NCBI GenBank assembly: GCA_947495295.1
Contig: CANLYJ010000002.1
Coordinates: 248,001-312,000, forward strand
Length of the DNA stretch: 64,000 bases
Origin: an uncultured Paracoccaceae bacterium
Lineage (GTDB): Bacteria > Pseudomonadota > Alphaproteobacteria > Rhodobacterales > Rhodobacteraceae
Reading direction: 5' to 3'
Each line of letters starts with the position of its first letter. Position 1 is the stretch's first letter. A program made the translations under genes and the position numbers. Below the pieces are notes generated by a model. The model ran no database searches. It saw only the letters and a program-made list of their open reading frames with translations, and was not told the origin of the DNA. Shown piece after piece: positions 7,105 through 57,077 of this stretch.

Positions 7105-7941
7105 ATGAAAAAAATCGTCCTCACAGGTGCCGCTGGCCGACTAGGATCTTATCTGCGCGAGCCGCTTTCGAAGATGTGTGATGAACTGGTTTCAACAGAT
7201 ATCGCGGATGACATCGGCACGCTTTACCCCGGCGAAACCTATGCAAAGGCTGATCTGGCCAGCATGGAACAGATGGCGGGTGTCATCCAAGGTGCTGAAA
7301 TGGTTCTGCATTTTGGCGCCATTGTTGACGAGGCGCCATTTGAGGAATTGCTGGGGCCGAATTACATTGGGTCCTATAATGTCTGGGAAGCGGCCTATAA
7401 AACAGGGGCGCGGCGAGTGGTTTATGCAAGCTCGATCCACGCCGTTGGCATGTATCCAAAAAATGAATGTATCGATACCGAAGTGCCGCATAGGCCAGAT
7501 ACTTTCTATGGCCTTGCCAAGTGTTTCACCGAAGATCTGGGGCGCATGTATTGGGAAAAACGTGGGCTGGAATCAGTGCATCTGCGCATTTTGTCCTGTG
7601 CCCAGGTCAATAACGCCCGCGCGCTTGGATCTTACTTGTCTTACAATGACTTGATCCAGTTGGTGCAGCGGGCCGTGGACACGCCTGTCACCGGTTTTTC
7701 GGTGGTGTATGGGGTGTCGAACAATGACCGTTCGCCGGTAGATAACAGCAAGGCCCGTTTCCTTGGATATCGTCCGCGGGACAACGCCGAAGAATTTGCG
7801 GAAAAAGTGCTGGCCGAGACCGATCCTTTGGATCCGCAAGACCCCGGTCATATGTGCCATGGCGGACCGTTCGCATCGGTTGATCTGGGCAATAGCGGGT
7901 TGGCAGGAATGAACGTCGTGGATGACCGCAAGAAGATCTGA
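7105..7941 (+). CDS. udh: NAD-dependent short-chain reductase, uronate-dehydrogenase-like
   Basis: The 278-residue protein begins with KIVLTGAAGRLGSYL (Rossmann loop TGAAGRLG). It has the catalytic serine region YASSIHAVGMYP and the YGLAK motif (YxxxK). The order of motifs, the SSxHxxGxYP signature and the size resemble bacterial uronate dehydrogenase, which oxidises glucuronate or galacturonate to the aldarolactone; a general sugar epimerase/reductase is the alternative. An AAGGGAGA ribosome-binding site precedes the ATG. It is 66 nt downstream of the oxidoreductase and probably ends the operon. Confidence 0.65.
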   Translation: MKKIVLTGAAGRLGSYLREPLSKMCDELVSTDIADDIGTLYPGETYAKADLASMEQMAGVIQGAEMVLHFGAIVDEAPFEELLGPNYIGSYNVWEAAYKTGARRVVYASSIHAVGMYPKNECIDTEVPHRPDTFYGLAKCFTEDLGRMYWEKRGLESVHLRILSCAQVNNARALGSYLSYNDLIQLVQRAVDTPVTGFSVVYGVSNNDRSPVDNSKARFLGYRPRDNAEEFAEKVLAETDPLDPQDPGHMCHGGPFASVDLGNSGLAGMNVVDDRKKI

Positions 7942-7949
7942 AAAACACT

Positions 7950-7987
7950 GTCGGCAAAGCGTCGGCAAAACGTCGGCAAAGCGTCGG
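7950..7987 (+). repeat. Four tandem GTCGG repeats, exact 11-bp period
   Basis: GTCGG starts at 7950, 7961, 7972 and 7983; units one to three continue as GTCGGCAAAGC, GTCGGCAAAAC and GTCGGCAAAGC, and the last reads GTCGGACAG. An array of the same geometry lies on the minus strand at 56943-56980. A TAACGTAGC, also shared with the second site as TAACATAGC, lies at 8032-8040. The period suits a DNA-binding protein stacking on one face of the helix. The bound factor is unknown. Confidence 0.7.
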
Positions 7988-8295
7988 ACAGTTCCTGGCC
8001 ATGCGTTGACCGCGTGTTTACGACTTCAGGCTAACGTAGCCCGTGCGTCCGAGGGCGTTTTTCGGGCAAATGCCGGATCAGATCAGGAGCTGGGCAGATA
8101 ATTATTGTCTATTATTGGCTACAGATGCGCAACAATCTGCCGCTTTTGATTGGAATGGTCTATGGGCGTAGAAATTAACACTCTGTTTATGTTTCGGTGA
8201 ATATAGTGATTCTAGTAGAGGTATGGTGTCTTGCGGGTAACACAACCAACGCGTGACTGTACCAAGGGCTGGATTCGACTCGGAAATACTGGGAA

Positions 8296-8553
8296 ATGAA
8301 CTGGATGCAGTCGCAAGAATTCATGAACGCCAATGCTGAAGATGTCAGCACGCCGGGAAAGCCGGTCTTGTTTTACGCGCTGCTTTGCGGTGTCATTAGC
8401 GGCACCGCTTCCAATGTTACCGCATTGCTGCTTGGCTATTCATTCTGGATTGGTCTGTTGTGTCACAGCCTTGTGGGCATGCTGGGCATGCTTCTTGTGA
8501 TCGCAGCGTATTTGGTGCGCGGCGAAAAAGTCGGGGATGACAGCGCATCATAG
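8296..8553 (+). CDS. Small hypothetical membrane protein
   Basis: This 85-residue ORF starts ATG at 8296, with an alternative ATG at 8305, and no strong Shine-Dalgarno is seen. Residues about 23-74 are almost entirely hydrophobic and form two likely membrane helices (VLFYALLCGVISGTA and LLCHSLVGMLGMLLVIAAYLV), with a short charged tail. No family is recognised. It is the only ORF downstream of the 7950 repeat array and lies convergent to the TPR lipoprotein gene. The roughly 350 bp before it hold only the array and promoter-like AT-rich sequence. Confidence 0.5.
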   Translation: MNWMQSQEFMNANAEDVSTPGKPVLFYALLCGVISGTASNVTALLLGYSFWIGLLCHSLVGMLGMLLVIAAYLVRGEKVGDDSAS

Positions 8554-39817: not shown

Positions 39818-40326
39818 GACGGAACAACCCCCTCTGAAGACAAGGAGGACATAAGCTGTTTGCGTGCCCTGTGTATGCGACTCATCACCGTACCAATGGG
39901 AATCCCCAGTAATTCTGAGGCTTCACGATAACTGTAGCCCTCGGCACAGACCAGCATCAGCGGCTGCGCAAGATCCTGATCAAGGTCATCAACCTTACGA
40001 CGGACCTGTTTGGCGGTCAGCACCTCATCAGCCTGGTCTTCGACCCGCAGCTCTGTCGCTTCTTCGGCAGGGACCTGGCCCGCACCCTGACGGACATTGC
40101 GCTTGCGGATCTCGCTGATCCACAGATTGCGCAGGACGCGGAACAACCAACGATCCAGCGGCTGGGTGGGGTCATATTGCTGCCATTTCTGCAAGGCCGC
40201 AGCACAGGCATCCTGCAACAGATCATCTGCATCCGGACCAGACCGGGTCAAAGACAATGCAAACCGGCGCAAGCGTGGCAGCAGGCTGATCATCTCGGAT
40301 TTGAATTGGTCAGGTGTCATGGCCAT
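39814..40326 (-). CDS. ECF-type RNA polymerase sigma factor
   Basis: About 170 residues from ATG 40326; ATGs at 40320 and 40341 are alternatives, and the open frame continues to 40506 without support. Region 2 appears in RRFALSLTRSGPDADDLLQD and WLFRVLRNLWISEIRKR, and region 4 in SYREASELLGIPIGTVMSRI. It recruits RNA polymerase to a small stress or envelope regulon and is held by the coupled membrane anti-sigma factor. No GGAAC-type autoregulatory promoter could be recognised upstream. Confidence 0.85.
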   Translation of the reverse strand: MAMTPDQFKSEMISLLPRLRRFALSLTRSGPDADDLLQDACAAALQKWQQYDPTQPLDRWLFRVLRNLWISEIRKRNVRQGAGQVPAEEATELRVEDQADEVLTAKQVRRKVDDLDQDLAQPLMLVCAEGYSYREASELLGIPIGTVMSRIHRARKQLMSSLSSEGVVPS

Positions 40327-41188: not shown

Positions 41189-41264
41189 TCCGGCATCTGC
41201 AGTCGATCACCTATGCCGGGTCTGTATATCAAATGTCGCTGCGTCAACCGCATCAGATTCAAAA

Positions 41265-41296
41265 AAAGGGCCACCCCGGCGATGGGATGGCCCTTT
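41265..41296 (-). terminator. Strong intrinsic terminator (minus strand)
   Basis: In the minus direction AAAGGGCCA pairs with TGGCCCTTT (9 bp, with an inner CCC/GGG extension) and is followed by an uninterrupted T-run at 41267-41261. It ends the unit holding the tiny ORF at 41362-41418 and lies about 100 nt upstream of arfB. Confidence 0.85.
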
Positions 41297-41361
41297 CCTG
41301 AATTACGGAGGCGGGTCGGTTAGGGTTGCCCACCTTATGGTCTTCTCAGCCAAGGGCTGCC

Positions 41362-41418
41362 TTAGCTGCGACCCCCATAAGTTGTCCCGACACACTTCTC
41401 CAATACCTCATGATGCAC
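41362..41418 (-). CDS. Candidate tiny ORF with complete 14-nt Shine-Dalgarno
   Basis: AAAGGAGGTGATCC (41433-41420, minus) is complementary to the whole ribosomal anti-Shine-Dalgarno tail. Seven nt after its GGAGG a GTG (41418) opens an 18-codon frame, MHHEVLEKCVGTTYGGRS. An overlapping ATG frame (41411-41346, 21 codons, MRYWRSVSGQLMGVAAKAAL then G) is the alternative but sits 14 nt from GGAGG. The strong terminator at 41265-41296 closes a unit of about 200 nt. It could be a microprotein, a leader peptide or a small RNA. The remainder of 41189-41506 holds nothing else recognised. Confidence 0.45.
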   Translation of the reverse strand: MHHEVLEKCVGTTYGGRS

Positions 41419-41506
41419 TGGATCACCTCCTTTCAAAATGTTTCGCCTGAAAAGAGGTTGGCACAGATTTGGTATATTTCAAGTAAAAATATCGTACATT
41501 TCGTGT

Positions 41507-56791: not shown

Positions 56792-56942
56792 GGCGTTCCC
56801 TTCTTGATGAGGAAGACCGTCGTCGAAAAAGGCTAAGAAAAAGTTGAGCGGATGCGGAATTGCCGCGATCGCATGAAGCTTAACGCCGCATTCATAGTTT
56901 GACCGTGCGCTATGTTAATGTCGCGTCATGCGCCCAAAGGGT

Positions 56943-56980
56943 CCGACGTTGGGCCGACGCTTTGCCGACGTCTGGCCGAC
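56943..56980 (-). repeat. Four tandem GTCGG repeats, exact 11-bp period (minus strand)
   Basis: On the minus strand GTCGG occurs at 56980, 56969, 56958 and 56947. The units are GTCGGCCAGAC, GTCGGCAAAGC, GTCGGCCCAAC, then GTCGGACCC. The geometry equals that at 7950-7987, including the terminal GTCGGAC. A TAACATAGC follows at 56917-56909, about 118 bp upstream of the PDC protein's ATG. The array is probably an activator or repressor binding platform. Confidence 0.7.
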
Positions 56981-57077
56981 AGCACGTTTTGGCCAAAACC
57001 CCTGCTTTAACACATGATTCGTGAAACCCGCCGATCCCGCGTGTTGCGCACCCCCATGCGAGGCACCGTGCGTTGCG

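Follow-up and report, generated by a model that had tools for sequence, protein, structure and literature searches.

GTCGG arrays of 11-bp period in a Rhodobacteraceae genome: putative protein sites and candidate polar chromosome landmarks

Arrays of the window and elements of the host genome

What a run of GTCGG cores at exact helical-turn spacing is for is the question raised by positions 7950..7989 of the 64 000-nucleotide stretch analysed here (the window; C2:248001-312000 of the host genome G000, 4.27 Mb in 21 contigs). Array 1, on the forward strand, reads GTCGGCAAAGC GTCGGCAAAAC GTCGGCAAAGC GTCGGAC; its GTCGG cores start at 7950, 7961, 7972 and 7983, an exact 11-bp period, with AC after the last. 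Array 2 (56941..56980, −) reads GTCGGCCAGAC GTCGGCAAAGC GTCGGCCCAAC GTCGGAC. A sequence-only reading had reported both, placing the second on the opposite strand with four units, likewise an 11-bp period and a GTCGGAC end, and had judged chance unlikely; all of this was borne out, the four GTCGG cores of array 2 lying at 56943-56980 (−). The four-unit pattern gave 0 matches in all 100 of 100 dinucleotide shuffles of the window, and with up to three mismatches it occurs at five places in the window, of which two, arrays 1 and 2, are perfect. A pair proved too small a frame for the two arrays, since the host genome holds 82 elements.

In G000 the three-unit pattern matched 76 times on the forward and 58 times on the reverse strand (overlapping counts), whereas a reversed control gave 0 matches; four-unit matches numbered 55. 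We inspected 59 arrays individually, all from contigs C1-C4, and built a sequence-only model from 45 of them. The model gave 88 matches in G000 at E ≤ 0.1; 83 of these had E ≤ 3.2 × 10−4 and two were parts of one array, which leaves 82 elements, or ∼20 sites per Mb (about one per 50 kb), each of three to five 11-bp units. Array 1 matched positions 18-87 of the 113 in the model (E = 1.4 × 10−14, 55 bits) and array 2 scored 70 bits (E = 2.7 × 10−19). Unit 1 of the host arrays is often GTCTG, their spacers are variable, and AT tracts occur on either strand (AAAA or TTTT).

Many of the 82 elements are composites of ∼200 bp, with TTAA-containing boxes at fixed distances. The order is a GCAACGTTCGGTG-like box, CGAATCATGTGTTAA (−74 to −60), an AT-rich palindrome, the array, TTAAcggGGCGTGCGGTG (+29) and TGAATGCGGTGTTAA (∼+53 to +67). 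A GCAACGTTCGGTG-like box was recognised in 24 of the 59 host copies; the distance from its CAACG to the last unit is 128–130 bp in 13 copies and 117–120 bp, one helical turn less, in nine, and CAACG lies elsewhere in two. In 2 kb around 40 of the host's own arrays and 79 from the named hosts described below, the inner boxes concentrate solely at the fixed positions.

The complete box set is present at array 2, beginning directly after the stop codon of an OmpA-domain gene with the 5′ box GCAACGCACGGTGC (57063..57076, −). This box is a variant copy of the common form GCAACGTTCGGTG; exact GCAACGTNCGGTG occurs 33 times in the host genome, and the copy at array 2, with C for T, is not among them. 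Then come the left box CGAATCATGTGTTAA (57007..57021, −), at −74..−60 from the start of the last GTCGG, the palindrome GGTTTTGGCCAAAA (56987..57000, −) shortly 5′ of the array, the right box TTAACATAGCGCACGGTC (56901..56918, −), whose TTAA lies 29 bases past the start of the last GTCGG, and the 3′ box TGAATGCGGCGTTAA (56880..56894, −), which closes the composite element. A blastn search of plasmid and phage collections, from which records close to the host genome may be absent, gave 0 matches to a 201-bp stretch around array 2.

Array 1 consists of the array and a preceding AT tract, with no composite boxes recognised around it. The tract, AAAA (7941..7944, +), occupies −9..−6 relative to the first unit, where each of the four profiled array sets is AT-rich. 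It shares its first base with the end of the stop codon of the upstream gene, a NAD-dependent epimerase family member (7105..7941, +) ending 8 bases before the array. On the other side, an 85-amino-acid open reading frame, to which Pfam gave no match, begins at 8296, 306 bp past the array.

Conservation at orthologous sites and occurrence in other genera

Array 1 was found at the orthologous place in two relatives. In G294 (L356) it occupies the same site, with one core changed to GTCAG, and at L243 (81% identity) it is intact where the DNA directly after it aligns poorly. Conservation relative to the flanks, on which the sequence-only reading had made its case depend, thus holds in so far as array 1 outlasts the alignable DNA after it, with the qualification that the cores in this relative are part of the search pattern. 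Orthologs of array 2 were found at L094 and L198.

Across the genome of G294, 25 of 30 loci (two of them one array) align to a fetched host locus that has its array in the matching position and on the same strand; the remaining five are without an aligned host locus among those fetched. In 21 ortholog pairs at 94% identity, spacers differ at 10 of 252 positions, right flanks at 117 of 1302 and 222 of 2772, and left flanks at 53 of 819 and 158 of 2688, so that spacers are less diverged than right flanks and not clearly less than left ones. The unit-1 cores of four-unit arrays changed at 5 of 70 positions in these pairs, all at the fourth base (four T, one A). Own-type arrays also occur in named hosts, namely Yoonia maritima DSM 101533, Yoonia sp. 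I 8.24 and uncultured Rhodobacteraceae (at least 99 stretches), and G000 itself is probably close to Yoonia. Of the 99 listed loci of the named hosts, 31 match one of the 59 host arrays by their flanks, 25 with a single alignment across the array. In 10 ortholog pairs at 80–84% identity, free spacer positions differ at 36 of 120, the 11 bp before the array at 38 of 110, right flanks at 186 of 640 and 129 of 484 (315 of 1124 combined) and left flanks at 63 of 310 and 151 of 750. Because the 94% pairs do not separate spacers from left flanks, the case for free spacer drift rests on these more distant pairs. Their cores are unchanged (0 of 200) but are part of the search pattern, and the point is therefore the survival of whole arrays. 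Judged from these alignments, arrays are retained in orthologous positions at ∼82% identity, whereas their spacers drift.

In a survey of 295 genomes of the family, 43 had at least one three-unit GTCGG match and 19 had at least nine; some of the low counts are plain tandem repeats (e.g. G132). Class-wide, a four-unit GTCGG array was found in 5 of 385 genomes; four belong to the same family, and the fifth, G560, has a simple tandem repeat. The array-bearing genomes are scattered on an FtsK tree and not clearly clustered: for 29 rows (19 array-bearing, 10 array-less) seven changes were needed, the shuffled mean being 8.5 and 88 of 500 shuffles as low. In 200 kb from each of two array-negative genomes, G215 and G001, no 11-bp array family was found. 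Each holds a single 11-bp array, with core GTCAGG in G215 (L350, ∼1480-1560) and with three units of core TAACTC in G001 (L343, ∼14860). Three-unit GTCAG matches occurred in 2 of 10 negative genomes, one each, that of G228 being a tandem repeat; the GTCAG core is not genome-wide.

The units vary between genera, with GTCGGTATTAC in G269 and G242, GTCGGGCAAGT in G035 and GTCGGACTTGC in G064. The reversed-pattern control gave 74 matches in G211, which bears GGCTG arrays. By eye, GTCGGCAAAGC and GGCTGCTTTGC would fit one consensus, GKCKGC-WWW-GC. AT content was profiled for arrays of at least four units aligned on the first unit (40 own, 96 from named hosts, 27 from G211 and 25 mixed, from nine other genomes). 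All four sets share AT-rich positions at −18..−16, at −9..−6 and inside the spacers, weakest in the mixed set (0.64–0.80). The boxes extend to other genera as well: by eye, the right box lies at +28..+30 in four of 20 loci from seven other genera (L171, L182, L183 and L185), and among 21 arrays of G269 and G242 the GCAACGTTCGGTG box was seen in L118 and L132 and a near form in L116.

Between genera, array positions mostly differ. Among 45 overlapping loci of G211, G269 and G242, compared with 59 of the 82 host arrays, L126 alone has the flanks of a host array (L035) on both sides.

Two minor observations concern arrays of other types. Directly before 2 of the 27 GGCTG arrays of G211 (L101 and L108) stands TTATCCACA, which we take to be a DnaA-box sequence; with two of 27 it was rejected as a rule for these arrays. 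Viral contigs gave 0 own-type matches and one of the GTCGGYATNRC type, a GTCGGTATNRC array shortly past a stop codon in IMG/VR contig L378 (7300-7700). The flank of this array reads by eye as the end of a bacterial acyl-CoA dehydrogenase gene, and L378 is therefore probably host DNA.

Replication polarity, spacing and gene context

GC skew of the flanks (up to 3 kb per side, 250 bp around the array omitted) is positive in the frame of the array for 47 of 59 arrays in G000, 27 of 29 in G294, 20 of 21 in G269 and G242, 21 of 27 in G211, 17 of 18 in others, and 60 of 79 named-host arrays, the last among the 80 loci listed of at least 99. AT skew is negative in all six sets, significantly so in five (‘others’, p = 0.12). 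Since genes bias skew, coding-strand GC3 skew was compared by gene strand; array-strand genes exceed other-strand genes in six of six sets (p from 7 × 10−4 to 4 × 10−23). Coarse 20-kb skew samples taken every 180–190 kb agree with 27 of 41 arrays in G269 (p = 0.06) and 19 of 32 in G035 (p = 0.38), or 13 of 16 in G035 if the sample lies within 50 kb. Array strand thus appears to follow the leading strand as judged from GC skew rather than from a mapped ori and ter, with weak agreement from the coarse samples. The 32 arrays of G035 are confined to its 3.79-Mb contig; the remaining five contigs of this ∼4.4-Mb genome have none. Strict replichore polarity was considered for G269 and rejected, the full array listing showing both strands.

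Both arrays of the window match the local skew, which is positive at array 1 (+) and negative at array 2 (−). The sign of the skew switches near 40000 (cumulative maximum near 40 kb), and the two arrays face each other across this point, which may be terminus-like or the border of an old inversion. A search of the window with a dif consensus gave 0 matches.

Arrays are spaced more evenly than random in two of the four genomes examined. In G000, contigs C1-C4 carry 62 of the 82 elements; the 58 gaps between these have a coefficient of variation (CV) of 0.67 against 0.94 for random placement (P = 2 × 10−4), and two of the 58 are below 10 kb where 10.2 are expected. For the 23 arrays of contig C12 in G211 the CV is 0.46 against 0.94, with 0 of 20 000 random draws as low. 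Evenness of spacing is marginal in G035 (CV, P = 0.077; smallest gap, P = 0.0017), and in G269 spacing is not even, judged from the CV value itself (0.90); the arrays of both genomes were located by exact three-unit matching, so that imperfect ones are missed.

On the output of a crude gene caller, 17 of the 59 host arrays lie between co-directional genes and point with them, 16 lie between such genes and point against them, 14 lie between convergent and five between divergent genes, three overlap a called gene and four are unresolved. The background was drawn from the window and L031-L070, where intergenic regions of 60 bp or more comprise 65 co-directional, 13 convergent and 22 divergent cases. 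The convergent-to-divergent ratio is thus 14:5 for arrays against 13:22 for the background (Fisher p = 0.021; all three context classes, p = 0.035). The arrays are intergenic, favour convergent over divergent positions and use both gene orientations, and are therefore not ordinary promoter operators. The proposal that array 1 is the promoter operator of the small downstream gene is not supported, given the excess of convergent over divergent sites, the 17 versus 16 orientation, the genome-wide occurrence and the leading-strand orientation. At the level of the family, placement as judged from called genes is not that of promoter operators; single sites may differ.

Candidate explanations

Direct repeats one helical turn apart that are not due to chance are best read, as in the sequence-only reading, as sites for an oligomeric protein, itself putative. 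Cores that recur exactly, spacers that drift, a fixed period and AT tracts outside the array form a pattern that a head-to-tail oligomer could leave, as described for PhoB (PMC4415409) and for Xis/Apl proteins (PMC7498355). The fixed period, the survival at orthologous sites and the AT-tract scaffold are observed; we infer that each array is a site for one sequence-specific oligomerising protein, with about four protomers head-to-tail on the GTCGG cores and AT tracts on both sides that would let the flanking DNA bend. Polarity and spread together point to a chromosome-scale role. The ∼80 sites, at about one every 50 kb and mostly pointing along replication by GC skew, may be polar landmarks for a process that needs an ori-to-ter direction or spaced anchors, with chromosome segregation, compaction and coordination with division as candidates. 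We consider that putative oligomeric-protein sites acting as polar chromosome landmarks have about an even chance of being the right description. Several results count against it, namely the patchy range (19 of 295 genomes with at least nine matches, and two negatives without an 11-bp family), the differences in position between genera, the uneven spacing in G269 and marginal spacing in G035, and the weak agreement with coarse skew.

The main rival is a fork-biased dispersed repeat, a non-autonomous element spread by copying, in which the strand bias would come from insertion into single-stranded fork DNA and the arrays would be internal protein sites. It is a minority prospect, yet a substantial one: at different sites of G000, and in other genera too, the boxes of the composite flanks reappear with their order and spacing kept, positions mostly differ between genera, the distribution is patchy, and a bias of replication strand is what such insertion would give. 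Its difficulties are that many sites are array-only, that arrays outlast the drift of their spacers, and that they are stable between close species (25 of 30 loci). Moreover, at the one site where it could be compared, L256 has an array where the window (∼41.2 kb) has none, and the two hold unrelated DNA of similar length with no clean insertion.

That the arrays are operators through which an OmpR/PhoB-type response regulator controls adjacent genes is unlikely, although an OmpR/PhoB-type protein is a possible binder. The 11-bp period fits, and the array flank has TNAA-N7-TTAA pairs, which we take to resemble the CtrA box. PHO boxes and OmpR-family tandem sites are similar to the arrays in being 11-nt direct repeats bound head-to-tail (PMC4415409). 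PHO box sites, however, are promoter operators, whereas the arrays are neither placed nor oriented like promoter elements: convergent positions are favoured over divergent ones, both gene orientations are alike, and spacing and replication polarity also speak against this reading.

Strong wrapping sites for gyrase, or another type II topoisomerase, at gene ends are a still less probable explanation. Gyrase is a universal enzyme, against which the patchy occurrence of the arrays stands. BIME-type repeats at gene ends are likewise positioned after genes; the arrays differ from these and from the gyrase motif in their exact recurring cores and patchy taxonomic range. In Escherichia coli, the gyrase motif spans 130 bp with a GC periodicity of 10.75 bp, and regions downstream of operons are enriched in gyrase sites (PMC6379681); both the periodicity and the enrichment favour the gyrase reading. 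The likeness lies in AT tracts at roughly helical spacing and in position after genes (PMC6379681); AT tracts flank the array on both sides, and the element is often at gene ends. The tracts run at ∼10-bp steps on both sides and are by eye out of phase with the array, so that on this reading tracts inside and outside it do not share one phase. The gyrase motif is also degenerate and read indirectly, against exact GTCGG cores with drifting spacers here. A gyrase wrap could explain the AT tracts but would leave exact cores and patchiness unexplained.

KOPS proper, the loading and orienting sites of the FtsK translocase, are very improbable. Recognition is by the FtsK gamma segment, and the gamma domain was found in 29 of 30 genomes tested. 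The segment, STSYIQRKLAIGYNKAARLVEQME, is nearly constant, with A or G at one place in array-bearing and array-less genomes; it is identical in the GGCTG genome and more changed only in array-less G014. FtsK gamma is thus disfavoured as the reader because its recognition segment is nearly the same with and without arrays and remains unchanged while the array core changes. The polarity is as described for KOPS, which lead FtsK towards dif (PMC7901474). Architecture Imparting Sequences (AIMS) are leading-strand-biased 8-bp words (PMC5993296), and KOPS and AIMS resemble the arrays in this bias (PMC5993296, PMC7901474). The arrays, at ∼20 sites per Mb with three to five 11-bp units, many in composites, are unlike the 8-bp words of AIMS and unlike short abundant KOPS. 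That the element is an RNA or terminator transcribed from the upstream gene, as some copies directly past a stop codon would allow, is the least probable reading, with compensatory two-sided change in 0 of 12 predicted pairs (RNAalifold, 35 sequences), even orientation to genes and 0 matches of the window to Rfam at gathering scores.

Two further known systems bear on the landmark reading. The sites of matS, Noc and SlmA number in the tens, lie dispersed over the chromosome and serve a single organising protein, as the arrays would; they are short palindromes, whereas the arrays are polar direct repeats. The arrays of the recombination directionality factors Xis, Cox and Apl share helix-turn direct repeats and cooperative, DNA-bending binding, but they belong to phage attachment sites or switch promoters, in contrast to ∼80 replication-polar genomic sites (PMC7498355).

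In its fullest form, the landmark reading would amount to a Rhodobacteraceae address system of spaced, replication-polar four-unit arrays of helical-turn period on an AT-tract scaffold, with a dedicated putative reader and a core that would have changed between genera (GTCGG, GGCTG) on an unchanged scaffold; this is a tentative view, with somewhat less than an even chance. If true, such a system would form a class of its own among polar chromosomal signals, separate from KOPS, matS and Noc/SlmA sites. To our knowledge, good descriptions of polar chromosomal signals exist for few groups, and little is known in alphaproteobacteria of chromosome orientation and spacing outside the parS/ParB region. 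The literature covered, a scope outside which most subscription papers fall, held no description of the repeat, and the exact array strings occur in 0 papers. Some 80 clean, recognisable, replication-oriented sites, present also in culturable Yoonia, offer a direct experimental handle. Array DNA can be used as bait for the protein, individual sites are open to deletion or inversion, and a core that differs between genera makes co-evolution usable to find the reader.

A structured RNA was also seen in the window at 41267-41442 (−), with a fold z of −4.3 for 41245-41440 and a terminator at its end. It matches the Rfam model of the CC2171 sRNA over its full length, at 39.3 bits (E = 4.1 × 10−7) where the gathering score is 75. 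The gene downstream of it presumably resembles an ArfB-type release factor, and the RNA is well conserved in the relative L256.
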